Positions 77 through 10,753 of a stretch of 64,000 nt of DNA are shown one piece after another (position 1 is the first letter of the stretch; the number at the start of each line of letters is the position of its first letter). A program made the position numbers and the translations under genes. Origin of the DNA: Candidatus Gastranaerophilales bacterium (GTDB lineage: Bacteria; Cyanobacteriota; Vampirovibrionia; Gastranaerophilales; Gastranaerophilaceae); NCBI GenBank assembly GCA_944326915.1, contig CALVFT010000002.1, positions 124,001 through 188,000 of the forward strand, given 5' to 3'. The notes beneath the pieces are model-generated. The model made no database searches and was not told the origin of the DNA. It saw only the letters and a program-made list of their open reading frames with translations.

Positions 77-1411
77 TTAATTCTTCTTAATTTTATTTCT
101 TTTTATATATTTAGAACTTGATTCAAGAATGCTATTATCAACTTTAATTTTATGATTATTAATAATTTCAGTGTTTGATAAATTTAGTTCAGGATCTTTA
201 TATGTAATACCGGCTTTAGTATTTATTAGCCCAATTTCATAATCAGACAGATCTTCAATAAATTTATTTTCTGAAATTAAATTTTTATTTTTCACAGCAG
301 CTGTGCCCATAAATTTATTTGAAGATTTATTATATATTTTGCCAATATAAAATCCAGCTTGTAAAAAGGCGTTTCTGATATTTGCTGAATTTGAGTATGT
401 TAGAATTATTCCATTTTCATCTAAATGTTTATATAGCTCACACATAAATTCATATGACCATAGGCAAGGACATTTTGCTGGAGTAAAAGCATCTAAAAAG
501 ACAATATCATATTGAAATTTACTCTTCATAAGAACACTTCGCGCATCATTAATCTCTGTTGTAAAGTTAATAACGTTATTTGTAAGGTGTTTAAGAGCTA
601 TTTTATAACTCTTTGATATATGCTGATAATATATATTATGTAAGAAGGCTTTTATTTTGGATGTTACCCCATAATCATACCTATTAGATTTGATAAATTT
701 GTATAAATCGATTATAGATTTATCAAAGTAGAGTGAATTTTCTTTATCATTTAATAAATTATTAAACTCTTCATCTGTAAATATTTCAGAATGAGATTCT
801 AATACTGATAGTAATATAATAAGATTAACAAATTTATGTAATTTATATTTTGGTTCCGTATTTTTCCCTAGCATTCTAGAAATTTTTTCATTATCAAAAG
901 TTAAACCGCTTTTATCGAATCTATTTTTTTTATTTTTAAAAAATGGTGACAAATAAACTAAATTTTTATCCGTGTCTATAGCATGTATAAATATTTTAGG
1001 AAAACTATTATTAGTATCTATCGTTTCGTTACTTTTAAAAGAATGGAAATTTTTTTCAATTATATTATTTGTATCTATCTTATCGATATTTTCTGAAAAA
1101 ATCTTACTTTTGTCTTTTTTGTTATTAGTATATATCGTTTCGATATTATAATTTTTTCCTTTTTCTTTTTGGGTAAAATTTTCAAAAAAATAATTTAAAA
1201 AACTTTTTGAATTATAACCAATTCCATAACAAATATCTAAAATTTTAATTTCTTTTTTATTATCAAGATATTTTTCTACGTTTGCGGGTAAAATAAATTT
1301 TTCATAAGCTTCAGATAAAGCACCGTATGTTGAGTGGTAAATATCATCTGCCTCCGGGCTGAATAGACCTACAGAACCGTCATTTGTAAAATATGGATAT
1401 AGTTTATACAT
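77..1411 (-). CDS. MnmC-like SAM-dependent tRNA-modification methyltransferase
   Basis: Resembles the methyltransferase half of MnmC (DUF752), which methylates the aminomethyl group of wobble uridine in tRNA. Seen: the N-terminal signature DGSVGLFSPEADDIYHSTYG (residues 11-30), a SAM-binding motif ILDICYGIGYNS (57-68) and the family block FLDAFTPAKCPCLW (305-318) followed by ENGIILTYS. The FAD oxidase half of classical MnmC is absent, as in stand-alone DUF752 proteins. At 444 residues it is long for that family because of a lysine/asparagine-rich insert after about residue 80 that contains a 19-residue repeat, and a lysine-rich tail after about 380. It is transcribed divergently from thrB. 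The family call is good; the exact substrate is inferred. Confidence 0.8.
   Translation of the reverse strand: MYKLYPYFTNDGSVGLFSPEADDIYHSTYGALSEAYEKFILPANVEKYLDNKKEIKILDICYGIGYNSKSFLNYFFENFTQKEKGKNYNIETIYTNNKKDKSKIFSENIDKIDTNNIIEKNFHSFKSNETIDTNNSFPKIFIHAIDTDKNLVYLSPFFKNKKNRFDKSGLTFDNEKISRMLGKNTEPKYKLHKFVNLIILLSVLESHSEIFTDEEFNNLLNDKENSLYFDKSIIDLYKFIKSNRYDYGVTSKIKAFLHNIYYQHISKSYKIALKHLTNNVINFTTEINDARSVLMKSKFQYDIVFLDAFTPAKCPCLWSYEFMCELYKHLDENGIILTYSNSANIRNAFLQAGFYIGKIYNKSSNKFMGTAAVKNKNLISENKFIEDLSDYEIGLINTKAGITYKDPELNLSNTEIINNHKIKVDNSILESSSKYIKRNKIKKN
1007..1147 (-). repeat. Degenerate 57-bp (19-codon) tandem repeat inside the methyltransferase gene
   Basis: On the + strand the core TTATTAGTATCTATCGTTTC recurs at 1008, 1065 and 1122 (degenerate), exactly 57 bp apart. 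In the protein this gives ETIYTNN (91-97), DKIDTNN (110-116) and ETIDTNN (129-135). The period is a multiple of three, so the frame is kept. It looks like an in-frame tandem duplication that has since diverged. Confidence 0.75.
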
Positions 1412-1500
1412 ACTCTTATTATAAAATGGCTTAAAAATAGTTCAAATTCTTTATATATCTTCATTATTGGTGTAATATTAGCTTTTTTTTATATTTTTGA

Positions 1501-1527
1501 TATAATACATCTAGTACAGATAAAGAG
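1501..1527 (+). promoter_or_regulatory. thrB promoter -10 and ribosome binding site
   Basis: A perfect TATAAT lies at 1501-1506, 28 bp before the thrB ATG. The matching -35 region near 1477-1483 is poor. GAGG at 1525-1528 region, about six bases before the ATG, is the ribosome binding site. Confidence 0.45.
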
Positions 1528-1533
1528 GAATAT

Positions 1534-2481
1534 ATGAAAATAAGTGTAAAAGTACCGGCTACTACAGCCAATTTGGGACCAGGTTTTGATTGTTTGGGTA
1601 TGGCGTTACCTATTTATAATACTATTACAATTGAGGAAACCGTCCTTCCTGGTACGGGAATTGAGATAAATGTTATTGCTGATACTCAAGAAGCTGATGA
1701 ATTGTCATTAGAACATATTCCATTAGACGAAAATAGTATTGTATACAAAGCCGTTGAGCTTTTATATAATTCTATCGGCCAAACTCCGAGTGAATTAAAA
1801 ATTACGATTCATTCTCAAATTCCTATCACTAGAGGTTTAGGTAGTAGTGCTTCTGTTATTGTAGGAGGTTTATTGGCTGCGAATGAATTATTAGGGCATC
1901 CTGCTGATGAAGCTGCTTTATTGTCAATAGCAACTGAAGTTGAAGGTCATCCTGATAATGTAACTCCTGCAATTATTGGAGGGCTTGTATTGGCCTCTCA
2001 AGAAGATGATGGAAGTGTTTTGTACCGTAAGCTAGATTGGCCTGATGAATGGCAGATTACTGTTTGTATTCCGGATTACGAACTTGCTACTGATATTGCT
2101 CGTTCTGTTTTGCCTAAAGAGGTTCCTATGCATGATGCAATATTTAATGCGCAACGCTTAGCAATGTTTGTACAAGCAGTGAATACAAAAGATACAGAAC
2201 TTATGAAGGCTGCACTTCATGATAAACTTCATCAGCCATATAGAATGAAACTTGTACCTGGATTAGAAAAAATTATGGAAAACTTAAAACATGAAGAAAA
2301 TGTTTTAGGTTGTGTGCTAAGTGGTGCTGGACCTTCTATTTTGATAATTTCGCATAAAAATGGTGTTGATAAAATTCATTCTATTGTAAAAGAAACTTGG
2401 GCAGATTTGAATGTTAAAGCTGAGGTGAAAACTCTTCCAATAGAAAAAAATGGAGCACAAATTATCAAACAAGATAACTAA
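1534..2481 (+). CDS. thrB: Homoserine kinase
   Basis: Phosphorylates L-homoserine with ATP to O-phospho-L-homoserine, the penultimate step of threonine synthesis, in the cytoplasm. Seen: the GHMP-kinase start VPATTANLGPGFDCLGMALP (residues 6-25), the phosphate-binding loop RGLGSSASVIVGG (about 100-112) and the C-terminal motif LSGAGPSIL. At 315 residues it is full length. The ATG is preceded by GAGG at good spacing and a TATAAT box. It stands alone: hom and thrC are not in the window, and a hairpin with a T-run follows at 2522-2560. Confidence 0.95.
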   Translation: MKISVKVPATTANLGPGFDCLGMALPIYNTITIEETVLPGTGIEINVIADTQEADELSLEHIPLDENSIVYKAVELLYNSIGQTPSELKITIHSQIPITRGLGSSASVIVGGLLAANELLGHPADEAALLSIATEVEGHPDNVTPAIIGGLVLASQEDDGSVLYRKLDWPDEWQITVCIPDYELATDIARSVLPKEVPMHDAIFNAQRLAMFVQAVNTKDTELMKAALHDKLHQPYRMKLVPGLEKIMENLKHEENVLGCVLSGAGPSILIISHKNGVDKIHSIVKETWADLNVKAEVKTLPIEKNGAQIIKQDN

Positions 2482-2521
2482 AAATTGAATTAAAGTATAA
2501 TTAAAAATGCTGTTTAATGAT

Positions 2522-2560
2522 AAATACTCAAAATAGTTTCAGTTATTTTGGGTATTTTTA
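2522..2560 (+). terminator. Terminator-like hairpin after thrB, abutting the ferredoxin start
   Basis: The arms TACTCAAAATA (2525-2535) and TATTTTGGGTA (2544-2554) pair over 11 bp with one G-T wobble. Three A-T pairs extend the base, the loop has 8 nt, and a T-run follows (2555-2559). It ends three bases before the preferred ferredoxin ATG, so it may end thrB transcription or act as an attenuator for ferredoxin. Confidence 0.6.
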
Positions 2561-2561
2561 T

Positions 2562-2744
2562 ATGGAAATTAAAATTTTGTCACGCTGCATTGGTTGTGGA
2601 GTTTGTAGTCAAATCGCACCAGAGGTATTTGATATTTATTCAAATTATGCAGTAACAAATGAATATAATATTGATAATTTTCAGGATGAGTGCATTGATG
2701 CATCAATTATTTGTCCTGTTGATGCAATAAAAGTTTTTATATAA
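2562..2744 (+). CDS. Single-cluster [4Fe-4S] ferredoxin
   Basis: A small electron carrier of about 60 residues. Seen: CIGCGVC (CxxCxxC) near the N-terminus and a final Cys-Pro in IICPVDAI, the four ligands expected for one [4Fe-4S] cluster. There is no second cluster motif. I chose the ATG at 2562 because ferredoxins of this type start just before the first cluster motif (MEIKILSRCIGCG). An in-frame ATG at 2517 would add 15 unusual residues encoded by the terminator-like hairpin. Neither start has a clear Shine-Dalgarno sequence. The redox partner cannot be told from the neighbours. Confidence 0.85.
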   Translation: MEIKILSRCIGCGVCSQIAPEVFDIYSNYAVTNEYNIDNFQDECIDASIICPVDAIKVFI

Positions 2745-2748
2745 ATAA

Positions 2749-2780
2749 AAAAGCCCTCTTTGTGGAGGGCCTTTATTTTT
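2749..2780. terminator. Bidirectional terminator between ferredoxin and the 2789 gene
   Basis: The arms GCCCTC (2753-2758) and GAGGGC (2765-2770) are flanked by an A-tract on the left and a T-rich tract on the right. This suits the end of the ferredoxin gene and of the convergent gene ending at 2789. Confidence 0.85.
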
Positions 2781-2788
2781 ATTGTTTA

Positions 2789-3307
2789 TTAACCTTGACC
2801 TGTGTAATCTGGAGCTAAGTTTTTTGCACCAGCTTTTTCTTCTTCTTTCTTTGCATCGTATTCTGCTTGTGCGATCTTTAACCTTGATTCTAAGTTATCT
2901 TTTTGTGTTTGTAATTGATCTTCTGTATCTTTTAATGGTTGTAGCATTGCTTCACGCATCATTTCAAACGTATTTTGCCATGCAGACTGAGCCATCATAA
3001 ATTGTTGTTGCTGTTGTTGTTGATAATTATTATATAAAGCTATATAACTTTGATCTAACTTACTCATAGAACTTGGATCCTGTGGATTTATACCAAGTTG
3101 TTCACCATATTTAAATACACTTCCATTCATTGCGGCTTGCATTTGAGCCTTTATAGAACTTTCTTTGGCACTAAAGAATTTTTCCATATCATCTACTTGT
3201 CTGGTGATACGGCGCAACTGACTTTGGACCATGGTCATCTCGTATTGTAGAGAACGAACCATTTTCCCAGCCATCAATTTACCATATGCGCCTGATAGAA
3301 AACCCAT
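2789..3307 (-). CDS. Unrecognised coiled-coil protein with poly-glutamine run
   Basis: I do not recognise a characterised family. The protein has 172 residues and is mainly helical. A short hydrophobic/glycine start (MGFLSGAYGKLMAGKM) is followed by heptad-like helices, a run of seven Gln (YQQQQQQQF, about 95-103), a Met/Gln-rich stretch, and a charged coiled coil from about 120 to the end. It has no signal peptide or clear membrane segment. AAAGGAT lies just before the ATG. In general design (short conserved start, long coiled-coil end) it recalls the protein at 27162-28202, but I cannot align the two convincingly. The CAA/CAG tract could vary in length by slippage. Confidence 0.7.
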   Translation of the reverse strand: MGFLSGAYGKLMAGKMVRSLQYEMTMVQSQLRRITRQVDDMEKFFSAKESSIKAQMQAAMNGSVFKYGEQLGINPQDPSSMSKLDQSYIALYNNYQQQQQQQFMMAQSAWQNTFEMMREAMLQPLKDTEDQLQTQKDNLESRLKIAQAEYDAKKEEEKAGAKNLAPDYTGQG

Positions 3308-3488
3308 GTCGTATCCTTTTGTTTATAATCCTCGTAAATATATAAAGTATATATTCTTTGTAAAATTGCGTAATATTAAAATTTATGTAACATTTCTTAA
3401 TATTTGTTTCAGAATTATCTATTACTACAATTGAAAAATTTATATTTTTTATGTAATATTTTCAGAGACTTGGAAATTGGAGATATAT

Positions 3489-4529
3489 ATGTTTAAAAGA
3501 TTATGGACTACAAAAAATATTATTTTTTCTATTTTGGTTATAGTACTATTACTTTTATTACCAAAAATTTCAGGAATTTTAATGTTATTTTTTGCAGCAT
3601 ACGTGATTGCATGCGCAATGAATCCATACGTTATTAAATTATCTGAAAAAATGAATAGAACTGCTGCTTCTTCATTGGTTATTACTGCAGCTGTAGCTTC
3701 TATTTTTGCATTATTTATTCCAATATTTTTTGTTGCATATAAAGAAATAAAAACATTTTTATTATATTTTCCTGAAAAAATCACAAGTGTTTCAAATTAT
3801 TTAATGAATGCAACATTCTACGGACACAGATTAGCTGATATATTTGACCTTAATTCCATTATGAACTCTACACCAGGGGTCGCAAAAGGTCTAGTTGATC
3901 AGTCTTGGAGCTTTACAGTAAGTATTTTCCAACTAGTTATGGTATTTGTTGCTTTAACTATGATTGTGTACTATATACTTGTAGACAAAGTATATTTGAA
4001 GAATAAGTTCATAGAATTCTTTCCACAAGATTTAAAAGAAAAAGCAAATCATATTTTAGTTGCAATAAGTAATAAAGTTGGTGGATATGTTAGAGCTCAG
4101 ATATTGTCAATGGTTGCAGTGGGTATTATGATGACTATAGGCCTTTTGATTCTTAGAGTTGAATATCCTATATTACTTGGTTTAATAACAGGTATTTTGG
4201 ATATTATTCCACTTTTAGGACCTACAATTGCTCTAGCTGTAATTTTGCTTGTTGCATATCCTTTAGGTATTGTAAAAATTGTATTGATAATTGTTGCTTT
4301 CCTAGTAGTTCAACAGTTGTCTAATTACATCGTAAGACCTGTCTTGTTTGGAAAGTTTATGGAATTACACCCTTTAATGATATTTTTTGCACTATTTGTT
4401 GCTGAACAATTTTTAGGTTTTTGGGGAGTAATTTTATCTCCTGCAATAGCAGCTACTATTTGTGTTTTAATTGATGAGCTGTATATATTACCAATTAATC
4501 AGGGTAATGATTTGGAAGTTAAGGATTAA
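3489..4529 (+). CDS. AI-2E (UPF0118) family membrane permease
   Basis: A polytopic inner-membrane protein of 346 residues with about seven or eight hydrophobic segments. Its central and C-terminal features are typical of the AI-2E/UPF0118 family: the late motif GLITGILDIIPLLGPTIALA and the closing segment with EQFLGFWGVILSPAIAATI. Members have been linked to autoinducer-2 or ion export, but the substrate here is unknown. I prefer the ATG at 3489 (MFKRLW) because GGAG at 3479-3482 is well placed for it; the upstream TTG at 3477 is not. The next gene begins one base after the stop, so the two are probably co-transcribed. Confidence 0.88.
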   Translation: MFKRLWTTKNIIFSILVIVLLLLLPKISGILMLFFAAYVIACAMNPYVIKLSEKMNRTAASSLVITAAVASIFALFIPIFFVAYKEIKTFLLYFPEKITSVSNYLMNATFYGHRLADIFDLNSIMNSTPGVAKGLVDQSWSFTVSIFQLVMVFVALTMIVYYILVDKVYLKNKFIEFFPQDLKEKANHILVAISNKVGGYVRAQILSMVAVGIMMTIGLLILRVEYPILLGLITGILDIIPLLGPTIALAVILLVAYPLGIVKIVLIIVAFLVVQQLSNYIVRPVLFGKFMELHPLMIFFALFVAEQFLGFWGVILSPAIAATICVLIDELYILPINQGNDLEVKD

Positions 4530-4530
4530 A

Positions 4531-6072
4531 ATGAGTAAGAAAGAACTTTTTTTATATAATAGAAAAGAGTCTCATAATGACGATTTTAAGATATGGATGG
4601 CTTTTCCTGGAATTTATTCATTTTCATTGTCATCTTTAGGCTTTTTATGGATGTTTAAAACTATAGATGAATTGGATGGAGTTGGGATTGAGAGAATTTG
4701 CTCTGATACAGAAAAAACACAATATAGAATCTGTGATATTAAGTTATTTGGATTTTCATTTTCATTTGATTTGGATTTTTTAACAATTTTTTCAATGCTA
4801 GAAAAATACGGTATTCCTCTTAAGGCATCAGAAAGAGGAGATGAATTCCCCCTAGTGTTTGCAGGAGGGCCTGTAATTACAGCAAATCCAACTTCTTATA
4901 GTGATTTTTTTGATTTCTTTATTATTGGAGATGGAGAAGATGTTAATATTGATGTTGTAAATATATGCAAGAATAATCAGGATAAGTCAAAAGATGAGAT
5001 ATTAAAATTATTAGCGGAAATTGAGGGAGTATATGTACCTAAATTAGGAAAAAGAAATGTAAAAAAATTAACTAAAAGGTTGAGTGAATGTATTTATACT
5101 CCAATTTTAAGTGAAAATGCGTTTTTTAAAAATACTTTTATTTTAGAATTAGCTCGTGGATGTGCTAATAGATGTGGTTTTTGCCTTGCTTCGTATCTAA
5201 ATTTACCATTGCGTTTTATGCCATATGAAGATGTTTTAGCTGTTATTAAGCTCGGTCTTTCTTATACAAATAAAATAGCACTCCTTGGTGCACAAATAAG
5301 CGCTCATCCTCATTTCAAAGATATTTGTAAGTTTATATACGAAAAAATCCTTAACGGAGAGAATATAGAAATGAGTGTATCTTCGCTTAGGGTAGATGCT
5401 ATTGAGACAGATGTTGTAAAAACTCTTGTTGCTGCCGGACAAAAAAATTCTACTTTAGCAATTGAAGCAGGCAGTGATAGACTAAGAAAAGTTATTAATA
5501 AAAATTTGACTGAAGAACAAATTTTTAATGCTGTTAAAATTGCAAAGGATAACGGTTTAAAAGGTTTAAAGTTCTATGGAATGATAGGTTTACCTACTGA
5601 GTCCGAAGAAGATATCAATGCTTTAATAATGCTTAGTAAAAAATTAAAACAAGAATATAAGGGATTTGATATAAGTTTTGGATTTTCAAGTTTTGTTCCT
5701 AAACCTCATACTCCATTTCAATGGTGTGGACGTGAAAATACTAAGTCTTTGGAGGAAAAGGCTAATTATCTAAAAAAAGAGTTTCATAAAATTGGTATAG
5801 GTGCTAATGTTTCAAGTATAAAATGGGATTATTGGCAAGCAGTATTATCAAGAGGCGATGAAACATTTACAGAATTTTTAATTGATATTTATCGTGATGG
5901 AGGAAAACTAGGAGCTTTTAAAAAAGCTGCCAAAAAGCATAATATCAATTCTGATTATTATGCTTATGAAAATTATTCATTCAATACAATACTTCCTTGG
6001 GACTTTATTGACATCAGGCCAGGAAAAGAGTTCCTTGAAAAAGAAAATCAACGTCTTTTATCAATTAAATAA
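4531..6072 (+). CDS. B12-binding-domain radical SAM protein
   Basis: A 513-residue protein. The N-terminal half resembles a cobalamin-binding-type Rossmann domain (FGFSFSFDLDFLTIFSMLEK, then FAGGPVITANP and FFIIGDGED). A radical SAM core follows with the cluster motif C211-x3-C215-x2-C218 (ELARGCANRCGFC). Downstream are the SAM-binding strand GLKFYGMIGLPTE and a FVPKPHTPFQW block, as in the TIGR03960-like family. The substrate is unknown. An upstream in-frame ATG would overlap the permease gene by 59 bases; the ATG at 4531, directly after the permease stop, fits the family start (MSKKELFLYNRK). It is probably translated together with the permease gene. Confidence 0.85.
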   Translation: MSKKELFLYNRKESHNDDFKIWMAFPGIYSFSLSSLGFLWMFKTIDELDGVGIERICSDTEKTQYRICDIKLFGFSFSFDLDFLTIFSMLEKYGIPLKASERGDEFPLVFAGGPVITANPTSYSDFFDFFIIGDGEDVNIDVVNICKNNQDKSKDEILKLLAEIEGVYVPKLGKRNVKKLTKRLSECIYTPILSENAFFKNTFILELARGCANRCGFCLASYLNLPLRFMPYEDVLAVIKLGLSYTNKIALLGAQISAHPHFKDICKFIYEKILNGENIEMSVSSLRVDAIETDVVKTLVAAGQKNSTLAIEAGSDRLRKVINKNLTEEQIFNAVKIAKDNGLKGLKFYGMIGLPTESEEDINALIMLSKKLKQEYKGFDISFGFSSFVPKPHTPFQWCGRENTKSLEEKANYLKKEFHKIGIGANVSSIKWDYWQAVLSRGDETFTEFLIDIYRDGGKLGAFKKAAKKHNINSDYYAYENYSFNTILPWDFIDIRPGKEFLEKENQRLLSIK

Positions 6073-6074
6073 TT

Positions 6075-6698
6075 TTATATAGGGACGTAACCAGAATATT
6101 TTAGGCTTGCCCAAGTGTCATAGTAACTAATTTGAGTCGCACTTCCTGTGTTTATAAAAAATCTAAACATTCTTTCAGGAGGTAATTCTAGTGCTGATAC
6201 GATTGCAGCCTGAATTACATCAGGATATGTTACTATAATAAGTCTATTCCCGATATTCTTTTCTACAATTGAGTTTATTGTTGCAGATACTCTGGTTACA
6301 AATTCATTTATACTTTCACAATTTTCAAAAAGTTTTTCGTTCGGAAATTTTATTAACTTATCAAGCATTTCAGGATGTTGAGATTCTATTTGATCAAAAG
6401 TCAACCCATTCCAGTCTCCACACATTCTTGGTTTTAAATCTTCAATTATTTCAAAGTCTTGTTTATATATTTTACTGATTAATTTTGCTGATTGAACTGT
6501 TCTTGCAGCTGAAGATGAGTAAATTATATCATTTTTTACTCCTCTTCTCTTTAAAAATTCGCAAATTCTATCAATTTCTTCTTGTCCAGCATCATTAAGT
6601 GGTGGATATACTTCGTTATCTGAAACTCTAAATTCATCTGAATATATTGTTGCTCCATGGCATATAAAAGTTATTTTACATTTTCTATCAAAATACAT
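6075..6698 (-). CDS. Histidine-phosphatase-fold protein lacking key catalytic residues
   Basis: This has the phosphoglycerate-mutase-like fold, in which the RHG histidine is normally phosphorylated. The first motif reads ICHGAT (C13-H14-G15), so the Arg of RHG is Cys. The SSSAARTVQSA block with R66 is kept. The usual WEG motif is WNG (96-98). The second catalytic His motif reads VTYPDV, with Tyr158 in place of His. The nucleophile His14 and one Arg remain, but two or three other active-site residues are gone, so phosphatase activity is doubtful. It may bind a phosphorylated ligand or act in regulation. It lies convergently two bases after the radical SAM gene and divergently from leuD. Confidence 0.8.
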   Translation of the reverse strand: MYFDRKCKITFICHGATIYSDEFRVSDNEVYPPLNDAGQEEIDRICEFLKRRGVKNDIIYSSSAARTVQSAKLISKIYKQDFEIIEDLKPRMCGDWNGLTFDQIESQHPEMLDKLIKFPNEKLFENCESINEFVTRVSATINSIVEKNIGNRLIIVTYPDVIQAAIVSALELPPERMFRFFINTGSATQISYYDTWASLKYSGYVPI

Positions 6699-6789
6699 AA
6701 TTTATCCTCTTTATCTTTCTTAATTATATCATATTTTTTACTTTTTTGTAGTATTATAAAGTAAAATATGTTATTTAGAGGAGATTTGT

Positions 6790-7287
6790 ATGAGAGGAAA
6801 AGCTTTTAAATTCGGGGATAATATTTCAACTGATCATATTGCACCAGGAAGACTATTTCATTTAAGATCTAACTTACCTGAGTTTGCTAAGCATGTCCTT
6901 GAAGATGCAGACCCTGAATTTGCATCAAAAATGAGTAAAGGAGATTTTGTAGTTGCAGGATCAAACTTTGGTTTAGGCTCTTCTAGAGAACACGCTCCAC
7001 AAATTATTAAAATAGCAGGTGTTGGTGCGGTTATAGCTAAATCATTTGCAAGAATTTTCTATAGAAATGCAATAAATATCGGGCTCCTTGCAATAGAATG
7101 TGATACTGATTCTATTGATGCTGGAGATGAATTGGATTTAGACATTGAAAAAGGGATACTAAAGAACCTTACAAATGGTACTATCACCCAAATTGAACCT
7201 CTTCCTCCTGTAATGATTAAATTGTTGCAAGATGGAGGGTTAGTTGAACATATTAAGAAAAATGGTGGTTTTAACCTAACTGATTAA
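6790..7287 (+). CDS. leuD: 3-isopropylmalate dehydratase small subunit (LeuD, HACN type)
   Basis: The swivelling small subunit that, with LeuC, isomerises 2- to 3-isopropylmalate in leucine synthesis. Seen: KFGDNISTDHIAPGR at the start, the AGSNFGLGSSREHAP block (about 57-71) and the AKSFARIFYRNAINIGL strand-helix. The 165-residue length is usual for the HACN/archaeal-type small subunit. GAGGAGA precedes the ATG. The likely partner leuC is at 42369-43610, so the pair is split by 35 kb. A related hydro-lyase such as homoaconitase or dimethylmalate dehydratase cannot be excluded from sequence alone. Confidence 0.87.
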   Translation: MRGKAFKFGDNISTDHIAPGRLFHLRSNLPEFAKHVLEDADPEFASKMSKGDFVVAGSNFGLGSSREHAPQIIKIAGVGAVIAKSFARIFYRNAINIGLLAIECDTDSIDAGDELDLDIEKGILKNLTNGTITQIEPLPPVMIKLLQDGGLVEHIKKNGGFNLTD

Positions 7288-7962
7288 TTACCAACCCTTT
7301 AATTTTTCAATATAGTCAGTTGCTATTTTTGAGTCACGAGCTTTAATAGCAACGAATTCTTCTCTTTTTGGATTTATAATGCACATAGTTCTTGCACACC
7401 TTTCAACAAATGCTGAAGCCGCAGAATAGTTATTTGCTCTTACTGCTTGATTTCTGCATTCTTCTAGTGAATTGCAAATTTTAGAAGGTCCTATATCGCC
7501 ACCTGTGCGCATATATTCATATCTTTTAGTATCAAAAGCTACCAGATTGTAATAATATGAGTTATTATTTTCTGATAAAATTCCTGAAATTTTGTTATAG
7601 AAATCACTATCTGCATATTTTGAATCACTAGTAGAATATACAAAAAATATAACTTTTTTATCAGACTTAAACAAAACATTCCATTGATATGAATTATCAA
7701 CAGCTGAAAGGACGTTAGCCGGAATATACCGAACTTTGATACCATTATACTCAGAGCGAGTTTTTTGGTTACCTGGATTTATTTTTCCTTTTTCAATATC
7801 AGTTGATGATAGTGTTGAAGTAAATTTTCCAAAAGATGTAAATATACTATCAAAATTTATTACTTTTAAAAAGCCAGCATAATTTGCAATTAGTAATAGG
7901 ACTATTACACACAAAACTAAACTAATAAGCTCTCTAAATTTATCTGAATTTTCCTTTTTCAT
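7288..7962 (-). CDS. Unrecognised membrane-anchored protein
   Basis: A 224-residue protein with one N-terminal membrane segment (LISLVLCVIVLLLIANYAG, about 13-31) and a soluble domain presumably outside the cytoplasm. The soluble part has a thioredoxin-like rhythm: a strand KKVIFFVYSTSDSKYA, a helix, a strand YYYNLVAFDT, two cysteine pairs (CNSLEEC and CARTMC), and a late strand-helix EEFVAIKARDS. No CxxC redox motif is visible, so the thioredoxin idea is weak. It is convergent with leuD with no gap and is followed on the other side by the rpsL promoter region. Confidence 0.6.
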   Translation of the reverse strand: MKKENSDKFRELISLVLCVIVLLLIANYAGFLKVINFDSIFTSFGKFTSTLSSTDIEKGKINPGNQKTRSEYNGIKVRYIPANVLSAVDNSYQWNVLFKSDKKVIFFVYSTSDSKYADSDFYNKISGILSENNNSYYYNLVAFDTKRYEYMRTGGDIGPSKICNSLEECRNQAVRANNYSAASAFVERCARTMCIINPKREEFVAIKARDSKIATDYIEKLKGW

Positions 7963-8004
7963 ATCAAATATTATACAACTTTTTGTTAAAATATCAAGAG
8001 ATTA

Positions 8005-8033
8005 TTGACAATTATTCTTGTACGTTGTTTAAT
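8005..8033 (+). promoter_or_regulatory. Promoter of the rpsL-rpsG operon
   Basis: TTGACA (8005-8010) and TTTAAT (8028-8033) are separated by 17 bp, a near-consensus sigma-70 promoter. Transcription would begin around 8040, at the foot of a foldable leader. Confidence 0.8.
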
Positions 8034-8035
8034 TA

Positions 8036-8097
8036 AGTTACACGCTTAGCCGAAATTTTCGTGCTGGATTTGACGGTTAAGAGAAGAAGTGTAGTTA
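8036..8097 (+). promoter_or_regulatory. Foldable leader RNA of rpsL-rpsG
   Basis: Two nested helices can be drawn. An outer helix pairs 8036-8043 with 8089-8096. An inner 7-bp helix pairs TTAGCCG (8046-8052) with CGGTTAA (8074-8080), with one G-T pair. A weaker AAAT/ATTT extension (8053-8056 with 8068-8071) continues inward. It lies between the predicted start of transcription and the rpsL ribosome binding site, so it is a candidate ribosomal-protein autoregulatory leader. The fold was drawn by eye. Confidence 0.5.
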
Positions 8098-8122
8098 ACA
8101 AAAACAGCAAAAGGAGAAACAA

Positions 8123-8506
8123 ATGCCTACAATTAACCAGCTTGTACGTAGAGAACGTAAAAAGCTAACAGACAAAACAAAATCTCCTGCTTTGATGGAT
8201 TGTCCTCAAAGACGTGGAGTATGTACTAGGGTTTATACTACAACCCCTAAAAAACCTAACTCAGCTCTTAGAAAAGTTGCAAGGGTTAGATTGACTAATG
8301 GATTTGAAGTTACTTCATATATTCCAGGTATCGGTCACAACTTGCAAGAACACAGTGTTGTTCTAATCAGAGGTGGAAGGGTTAAAGACCTTCCAGGTGT
8401 AAGATACCACATTGTTAGAGGTACTCTTGATACTGCAGGTGTTGCTAACCGTACACAAAGCAGATCAAAATATGGTGCTAAAAAGGCTAAAGGAGGTAAG
8501 AAATAA
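8123..8506 (+). CDS. rpsL: 30S ribosomal protein S12
   Basis: S12 lies at the decoding centre of the small subunit. Its 127 residues match the family throughout: [13 protein letters not shown], the loop [19 protein letters not shown] and [18 protein letters not shown]. The lysines in PKKPNS and RVKDLPG that are mutated in streptomycin-resistant strains are present, so this is the usual drug-sensitive form. AAAGGAG precedes the ATG. The stop overlaps the rpsG start as TAATG, which suggests coupled translation. Confidence 0.98.
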
Positions 8507-8976
8507 TGTCTAGACGTTCTAAACCAGCTAAAAGAATTCCTTTAGCAGATCCGGTATATAACAGCGTTGATATTTCAAAATTCATTAACCGTATTATGAG
8601 ACGCGGTAAAAAATCAATTGCTGAAAAGATTTTCTACGCTACAATGGATAGAATTAAAGAAAGAACTAATGAAGATGCTATTGAAATCTTCCAAAAAGCT
8701 CTTACTAATGCAACTCCATTGTTAGAAGTAAAAGCTAGACGTATTGGTGGTTCTACTTACCAAGTACCTATTGAAGTAAAAGCTGATAGAGGTTTTGCTC
8801 TTGCTTCTTCTTGGTTGATTGAATCAGCTAAAAAACGCGGCGGAAAATCTTTCATCGAAAAATTAACTAATGAATTAATTGATGCTTCAAATGGAGCTGG
8901 TTCTGCAGTTAAAAAACGTGAAGATACTCACAAAATGGCTGAAGCAAACAAAGCTTTCGCTCACTACAGATATTAA
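8506..8976 (+). CDS. rpsG: 30S ribosomal protein S7
   Basis: S7 nucleates assembly of the 30S head by binding 16S rRNA. The 156 residues include [36 protein letters not shown], a KARRIGGSTYQVPIEV block and the closing KMAEANKAFAHYRY. The start shares one base with the rpsL stop. The operon ends here at a strong terminator, so fusA and tuf, often next in the str operon, are not linked to it. Confidence 0.98.
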   Translation: MSRRSKPAKRIPLADPVYNSVDISKFINRIMRRGKKSIAEKIFYATMDRIKERTNEDAIEIFQKALTNATPLLEVKARRIGGSTYQVPIEVKADRGFALASSWLIESAKKRGGKSFIEKLTNELIDASNGAGSAVKKREDTHKMAEANKAFAHYRY

Positions 8977-9000: not shown

Positions 9001-9034
9001 AAAAGAAGAATACTTATGTATTCTTCTTTTTTTT
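9001..9034. terminator. Strong bidirectional terminator after rpsG
   Basis: A perfect 13-bp stem (AAAAGAAGAATAC, 9001-9013, with its complement at 9018-9030), a 4-nt loop and a T-run on the + side with an A-run on the other. It serves rpsG and the convergent gene ending at 9033. Confidence 0.92.
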
Positions 9035-10625
9035 ATTCTAATTTGATATTTTCCAAATCATTTTTTGGATTATTCGTTATTTTTACTTCAAAAAGCTCAG
9101 TAAACTCTTTCATGACAGTAGGATTAATTACCATTGAAGGACATTCAGATAAAAATATGTTTTTTGCGCCATGATTTTTTAAATTTATAATACTTGTTAG
9201 AGTATTAATATCGCATTTTGTTAAATAAAAGATTAAGTTGTTACTTTTCAATGGAACTTTATTAAATAATTCATGTATGACTGCAAGAGCGATTGAATAA
9301 TCATTTCCTATATTTATTACACGTGTGTTATCTGTATTTTTACCATAGGAAAAGCTTATAACATAGCTTTTTTCAGGAATTAGTTTAAATAGTCGTGAAA
9401 AATATTCATCTTGTTGCATTGAATAGTCTCCAAGACCTATCACAAATATATTTTCTATTTTTTTGTTAATTATATCTTGTGATATTCCTTCAAATTCTGT
9501 AATTAATTCATTCATGTTAAATCCGACAGTTACAGATTTTCTGTCTTGACCTTTTTTAAAGCCCTTTGATTCATTACATGATTTAAATAGTTCTGTATAA
9601 TCGTTGTTATCAAGATGAACTATTCCCTTAGGAGCCATTGAGTCAGTAGTGAATAATTTACCTCTATACAGATATTCTAGATTTTTTGTTTCATTTTTGG
9701 TTAACAATACTGGGCCAGGGAAGGTTGCAAAATCAAGGATAGTTGATTTTTTTTGATTTCCAAAATGACCTTTTAAATTTTCAAATTCTTTAAATTTTGA
9801 AAAAGCATGTGCAATAATCAAATCACCATTTGTGTATATATCAAATTCTTTTTTATCCTTTGAATATTCAAGCAAACTATATAGTTCATTTAAATCGCTA
9901 CCTGAAACTAATATTGCTTTACCCTTTGTTGTAGAAAAAGATGTATCAGTCTCAGATATTTCTCCAAATTTCTTTAATTTTTCATCATAAATTAGTTTAA
10001 GCAATTCAATATTTAATTGTGATAATTTGTCTATTGAACTTTTAACTTTCCTTGGAGAAACTTTTGTCTTATTTAATAAATCAAGAGCAATTATAACTTG
10101 TTCTGAGGACTCATTATGAAGCTCACTAAGCTCATAATATGTTAGAATATTATTTGAAATACTTTTTAAAACTGCTATTAAAATCTCATTTATGTACTTT
10201 GATTTACTATTTTCACCCCTATATTTTTTTATGTATTTTTGTTCGACATCTTTTATAAGTTTCGAAATTTTTATATCAGGTGTTATTTCAAATAGCAATT
10301 TAGGGCTCTTTATAATCTTATTTTCGCAAGAACAATCTTTATAAATATCATTTAAATAATCAAATTCTAAACGAAGTGTATCGAGAATTTGTGATTCTGT
10401 GTACTCTTTTAATGAATCTAGGGTTGTAATTTGTTTAATTATAAATAAGATTTTATCTTTATCACAGTTGTCAAATCCCTTAAAATTAGAGATATAATAA
10501 GATATTTGCGCAAGTGTAGATAACATAATTGTCTGTAATGAGACTATATTAGGAGATACAGAACATGCTCCCCTTGAATTACATTCATTATAATCAAAAT
10601 TGTTGCTAGAATATCCGTAAAACAT
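9033..10625 (-). CDS. Hybrid-cluster-protein (Hcp) homologue without cluster ligands
   Basis: The whole length follows hybrid cluster protein (prismane, hydroxylamine/NO reductase): the N-terminal CNSRGACSVSPNIVSLQT block, then SGSDLNELYSLLEYS, IYTNGDLIIAHAFSKFKE, ATFPGPVLLTKNE, LFTTDSMAPKGIVHL, FVIGLGDYS and a final HGAKNIFL. Yet the ligands are replaced: YTHGE reads YTNGD, TTNC reads LTKNE, GGCDG reads GLGDY, the ACGK-type Cys reads SYGKN, GQCND reads GNDYS, and WYEQK reads LTKCD. Only two of the four N-terminal cluster cysteines remain. It cannot build the normal hybrid cluster, so enzymatic NO or hydroxylamine reduction is unlikely. The start at 10625 is set by AGGAGA six bases upstream; a further upstream start adds 16 residues foreign to the family. 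Confidence 0.8.
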   Translation of the reverse strand: MFYGYSSNNFDYNECNSRGACSVSPNIVSLQTIMLSTLAQISYYISNFKGFDNCDKDKILFIIKQITTLDSLKEYTESQILDTLRLEFDYLNDIYKDCSCENKIIKSPKLLFEITPDIKISKLIKDVEQKYIKKYRGENSKSKYINEILIAVLKSISNNILTYYELSELHNESSEQVIIALDLLNKTKVSPRKVKSSIDKLSQLNIELLKLIYDEKLKKFGEISETDTSFSTTKGKAILVSGSDLNELYSLLEYSKDKKEFDIYTNGDLIIAHAFSKFKEFENLKGHFGNQKKSTILDFATFPGPVLLTKNETKNLEYLYRGKLFTTDSMAPKGIVHLDNNDYTELFKSCNESKGFKKGQDRKSVTVGFNMNELITEFEGISQDIINKKIENIFVIGLGDYSMQQDEYFSRLFKLIPEKSYVISFSYGKNTDNTRVINIGNDYSIALAVIHELFNKVPLKSNNLIFYLTKCDINTLTSIINLKNHGAKNIFLSECPSMVINPTVMKEFTELFEVKITNNPKNDLENIKLE

Positions 10626-10753
10626 ACATTCTCCTATTATTTTTGCTAATATAAGTAAATTATATTCATTCAATAAAAAATTTAATTCCCCTAAAAGTTA
10701 ATAGTTTGGATATACAATTGCATGCGAATATTGTTTATATTAAACTATTAATT

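Follow-up and report, generated by a model that had tools for sequence, protein, structure and literature searches.

The hybrid cluster protein (Hcp) is normally recognised by the metal clusters it holds, and related proteins are commonly named hydroxylamine or NO reductases. The window analysed here, a stretch of 64,000 nucleotides from a Candidatus Gastranaerophilales bacterium, encodes a protein that resembles Hcp from end to end and in which the cluster ligands are replaced, raising the question of whether it is an Hcp at all and, if not, what the fold is now used for. The gene and the hairpin beside it are as follows.

9033..10625, minus strand: Hcp-like gene without the ligands, coding for 530 aa in an intact frame from ATG to TAA
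8999..9032, no strand assigned (detected on the plus strand): terminator-like hairpin where rpsG and the Hcp-like gene converge

Hcp homology and the cluster ligands

The frame is intact, as an earlier note on this DNA had stated, and its claim that the Hcp pattern runs over the whole length is borne out by profile, sequence and fold comparisons. The protein matches PF03063 (Prismane; 1.3e-23, 83.9 bits, above the gathering cut-off of 27) and, over residues 9–527, TIGR01703 (177 bits, below the NCBIfam equivalog cut-off of 360.8). Comparison with the sequences of solved structures returned Hcps (up to 1.8e-30) and no CODH. An AlphaFold model calculated from an alignment of 80 relatives (mean pLDDT 86.3, pTM 0.88) has Hcps for all of its top fold matches in the PDB, E. 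coli Hcp (7de4) being first with E 8.4e-26 and TM 0.80; CODH folds rank after these, at 1.9e-11 and weaker. A grouping with CODH was rejected on these values (E of about 1e-25 for Hcp versus about 1e-11 for CODH). The pLDDT falls below 50 for residues 1–20, the place where the missing [4Fe-4S] cluster would sit. The hairpin has A-rich sequence to one side and T-rich sequence to the other, a composition with which it could serve as a bidirectional terminator.

The established ligands of the hybrid cluster, in D. vulgaris Hcp numbering, are H244, E268, C312, C406, C434, C459 and E494. They were located by aligning the D. vulgaris protein to the canonical Hcp from the window's own genome and counting residues. 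The census was made on an alignment of 163 sequences (147 relatives and 16 canonical Hcps), in which 146 relatives were counted. The corresponding positions in the window, assigned by alignment, are given below.

10581..10583, minus strand: Cys15, third cysteine of the Hcp [4Fe-4S] motif, kept (135/146)
10563..10565, minus strand: Cys21, fourth cysteine of the Hcp [4Fe-4S] motif, kept (135/146)
9897..9899, minus strand: Ser243 at the position of ligand His244
9822..9824, minus strand: Asp268 at the position of ligand Glu268
9690..9692, minus strand: Glu312 at the position of ligand Cys312
9429..9431, minus strand: Gly399 at the position of ligand Cys406 (persulphide)
9345..9347, minus strand: Tyr427 at the position of ligand Cys434
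9210..9212, minus strand: Asp472 at the position of ligand Glu494 (Asp in 110/146)

Every hybrid-cluster ligand is present in all 16 canonical Hcps. The window protein keeps none of the seven, with a conservative Asp at both Glu positions; C459 corresponds to G440 or is deleted, and K496 has become N474. Among the 146 relatives, H244 is replaced by S, N or T, E268 by D or N (E in only 18), C312 by S, E or F, C406 by S, L or T, C434 by Y or H, E494 by D (110/146), N or T, and K496 by N, S or H; C459 has no aligned residue. The N-terminal [4Fe-4S] motif of the window protein has lost C3 and C6 but retains C15 and C21. The same pattern holds across the family, with C15 and C21 retained in 135/146.

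The claim that all of the hybrid-cluster ligands had changed therefore holds for the full set, including the two late Cys positions (C434 to Y427, C459 to G440 or deleted), but two of the motif details behind it were wrong. The His ligand, H244, sits in GHDL (here Ser243); the ligand in YTHGE is E268, and the change to YTNGD alters one ligand (E to D), not two. The pairing of WYEQK with LTKCD was two columns off: the best alignment is with K-C-D-I-N, which sets Asp472 at E494 and Cys471 at the preceding Tyr. A gapped arrangement returning Cys, His or Glu to the ligand positions was rejected on the 163-sequence alignment, which restores none of them. A shorter form, mostly of about 480–510 aa, is found at L093–L104 in several genera (e.g. 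g3, g22, g36, g37 and g39); the segment around the GGCDG and LACGK positions is missing from it and C471 and C495 are kept.

At the level of sequence, these replacements show that a hybrid cluster could not be bound in the fashion of Hcp. The N-terminal [4Fe-4S] cluster is most likely absent as well, because a C67Y change at the first of the four cysteines of a class III Hcp abolishes the cluster and leaves the N-terminal domain disordered (PMC10502027), and Tyr is the commonest residue at position 3 in the present family (60%).

Distribution and descent of the family

At an E-value of 1e-10 the window protein is matched in 141 of 146 Gastranaerophilaceae genomes, in at least one of them (G055) apparently through a canonical Hcp copy only. 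The divergent form is thus estimated to occur in about 95% of the Gastranaerophilaceae sampled, a figure that also allows for a few weak matches, and it is absent from six nearly complete genomes. A canonical, near-full-length Hcp is found in only 51 of 142, and this gut lineage keeps an Hcp-shaped non-Hcp more widely than the real enzyme. A second, canonical hcp was sought in the window's genome and found at G000:C3:16479-17987 (557 bits), where it adjoins a Crp-like regulator and a flavin-reductase/rubredoxin-like gene, both read from sequence.

The ligand-less form is represented by 147 distinct sequences with intact frames from about 40 genera. Pairs with measurable dS give dN/dS of 0.03–0.16, with 0.11 for the window protein and its nearest relative, and in a tree of 47 sequences (quick search) the family is monophyletic with full support. 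The gene, far from being a pseudogene in most relatives, is intact in nearly all. The earlier view of a gene under selection without the known activity agrees with the dN/dS values, the clade-wide loss of ligands and the separate canonical Hcp, and we infer from the sequence that the window protein lacks Hcp activity.

Close examination covered Gastranaerophilales and a sample of the phylum. The best 80 matches listed in named genomes all belong to the ligand-less family by sequence; their titles are mostly Gastranaerophilales or Melainabacteria, and the few labelled Fusobacterium, Brachyspira or Heliobacteriaceae are probably misassigned. Tandem ligand-less copies, mutually well diverged, occur at L066 (G011:C145; three, 4011–8882) and L054 (G015:C41; two, 417–3685).

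A less altered Hcp is encoded in a related family of the same order (L227 and L228, from G294 and G297). It retains C312 and E268; its other hybrid-cluster ligands are lost, and the new cysteines described below are absent. Its gene adjoins rpoB-rpoC, and that of the Gastranaerophilaceae adjoins rpsL-rpsG. Since rpoBC and rpsL-rpsG form one region in most bacteria, the two positions suggest a single old copy at this site from which the ligands were lost stepwise. L227 and L228 sit on their own long branch between the groups in the 47-sequence tree, and because of this separate branch they may either be intermediates in the evolution of the family or have lost the ligands independently.

The gained cysteines and the glutaredoxin neighbour

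Three cysteines of the window protein are characteristic of the family, as assigned by alignment.

9213..9215, minus strand: new Cys471 in place of the Tyr preceding Glu494; 141/146 relatives have Cys here
9141..9143, minus strand: new Cys495 in place of the Thr of LGPTLPAF; 140/146 relatives have Cys here, and its losses coincide with those of Cys471
10332..10334, minus strand: Cys98, family-specific (92%)

C471 (97% of the family) and C495 (96%) are invariant in the 80-sequence alignment, and hardly any residue of the C-terminal domain is better conserved. With one truncated contig left out, neither is ever found alone. Five sequences lack both, and these correspond to three independent events on the tree, each losing the pair; with three events the joint loss is not significant (sign test, p 0.25). 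Predicted strands 464–468 and 489–492 of the AlphaFold model end three residues before C471 and C495, respectively, which would place the two cysteines in consecutive beta-alpha turns, on the face of the Rossmann-like domain that is turned to the cluster, their nearness being argued purely from secondary structure. A pairing of C98 with C15/C21 or with C471 was rejected, as the losses are not consistently joint and C98 varies independently.

A glutaredoxin/GST_N ORF lies directly upstream on the same strand in 99 of the 147 distinct relatives, with a gap of mostly -40 to +20. It matches Pfam GST_N_3 and Glutaredoxin, and the active site reads CP[YF][CS] in 97/99 (CPYC in 78, CPYS in 14, CPFC in 5). 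The commonest setting, wecB - glutaredoxin - Hcp-like - rpsG - rpsL, is seen at 78 loci, and common descent therefore accounts for much of the linkage. The pair is also kept at 12 loci (15 with short contigs) without wecB and rpsG. These represent several other settings, for example next to yebC and TPR genes or next to clpP and trigger factor, all named from sequence. Roughly one third of relatives have no adjoining glutaredoxin, several of them having an unlinked copy. G030 and G254 encode the GST_N-type glutaredoxin without a ligand-less Hcp, so that it is not strictly tied to the Hcp-like gene. Presence of the glutaredoxin was rejected as a predictor of the Cys pair, the two showing no relation among relatives; three of the five sequences without the pair still have it.

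The window's genus has lost this neighbour: no GST_N-type glutaredoxin was found in its three genomes, adjoining or elsewhere. The usual ORF is cleanly absent from 10626–10753 of the window, and a vestigial copy was rejected for want of room between 10625 and wecB. The window's genome does encode a GrxC-like protein and a thioredoxin reductase, as well as a homologue of glutathione synthase that scores below its cut-off.

Our preferred reading, to which we give a probability of about 0.4, is that of a neofunctionalised Hcp paralogue, ancestral to Gastranaerophilaceae, which acts as a thiol-redox protein served by glutaredoxin. That it is not an Hcp is well supported; the thiol mechanism we infer. 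The Hcp fold is kept, and the work would be done through the new dithiol Cys471/Cys495, situated in loops after two successive C-terminal Rossmann-like strands and bordering the vacated cluster pocket. The pair may cycle between dithiol and disulphide, or carry a persulphide or nitrosothiol, and the upstream GST_N-type CPYC glutaredoxin would reduce or exchange this site. In the window's genus another thiol reductase may stand in, the GrxC-like protein and thioredoxin reductase being candidates. The thiol reading is weakened because the five sequences (three events) without the Cys pair keep the gene, and the partnership because the window's genus and about one third of relatives have no adjoining copy and some genomes have the glutaredoxin only. 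The odds are roughly even that the family is a class of its own within the Hcp/CODH superfamily, present in nearly all Gastranaerophilaceae, whose catalytic metal site has given way to a dithiol or other new two-Cys site with a dedicated glutaredoxin. The two gained cysteines with their joint loss, the glutaredoxin partner gene and the near-universality are new here, beyond the earlier reading.

The chief rival, unlikely though a serious contender, is metal binding by the C471/C495 pair with Asp472 and His273. A mononuclear or small centre, perhaps with residue 268 as a further ligand, would occupy the old pocket of a metalloenzyme or metal sensor. The joint gain and loss of two Cys suits metal ligation as well as a disulphide, the E494 position is mostly Asp, and H273 is invariant in the 80-sequence alignment; however, many relatives have Asn or another weak ligand at position 268, and the glutaredoxin neighbour indicates thiol chemistry. 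By analogy with the CODH D-cluster, to which each subunit contributes two Cys (PMC6344411), C15 and C21 might also hold a cluster between two subunits. Yet the outer helices that hinder dimer formation in monomeric class I/II Hcps (PMC10502027) are retained here, judging by length and fold match, and C15/C21 are lost in 11 sequences in which C471/C495 stay.

Somewhat less probable again is a pseudoenzyme proper, that is, a metal-free and thiol-independent binding protein or structural partner in which the cysteines are structural. Such a protein would fit the loss of ligands alongside strong purifying selection, the retention of the gene in three lineages after loss of the Cys pair, and a glutaredoxin that is dispensable in one third of lineages, but not easily the conservation of C471 and C495, and a structural disulphide would be unusual in the cytoplasm.

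We consider it improbable that an Fe-S cluster is still held through unusual ligands and supports NO or hydroxylamine chemistry of the Hcp type. Two of the cubane cysteines do remain, as does an acidic residue in place of E494, and CODH-V offers a shifted ligand set within the superfamily, but Hcp is impaired even when a single ligand, the Glu or the first cubane Cys, is changed (PMC10502027), and here four Cys and one His ligands are gone in essentially all members. A decaying pseudogene or an assembly error, for which the loss of all catalytic ligands might speak, has a negligible chance given 147 distinct intact frames in about 40 genera with dN/dS of 0.03–0.16.

If the thiol-redox reading is true, the family provides a clear-cut example of a metalloenzyme fold whose active site has been replaced, a natural conversion of the scaffold to other chemistry, with a testable partner (the glutaredoxin) and testable residues (C471 and C495). 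It also counsels caution in naming Hcp-like genes by homology.

Comparison with known systems

A literature search returned no paper on a ligand-less Hcp, which is not proof of absence, and none that joins Hcp with Melainabacteria or pseudoenzymes, or Gastranaerophilales with hydroxylamine reductase; titles and abstracts found for Hcp and glutaredoxin describe no such pair.

The window protein resembles class I/II Hcp (TIGR01703, PF03063) in its full-length homology and fold, which matches those of the E. coli and the M. thermolithotrophicus Hcp at TM 0.80, and has the long N-terminal helical part of the monomeric Hcps. Unlike them, it has none of the seven hybrid-cluster ligands and just C15 and C21 of the four [4Fe-4S] Cys, scores at half the NCBIfam cut-off and possesses C98, C471 and C495; its family further differs in the glutaredoxin neighbour, absent in the window's genus. 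With Ni,Fe-CODH, including CODH-V, it shares a superfamily. CODH clades with altered active-site motifs exist (PMC6344411), and CODH-V has no C-cluster, yet holds an Fe-S-O cluster by an Hcp-like ligand set (PMC10502027). In contrast to CODH-V, the window protein has no such set and is much closer to Hcp by fold. The half-degraded Hcp of the sister family (L227, L228) belongs to the same order, is likewise without C3/C6, H244, C406, C434 and C459, and is encoded near rpoBC, in the region that usually holds rpsL-rpsG. It differs from the window protein in keeping C312 and E268, in having neither C471/C495 nor a glutaredoxin, and in its separate long branch.
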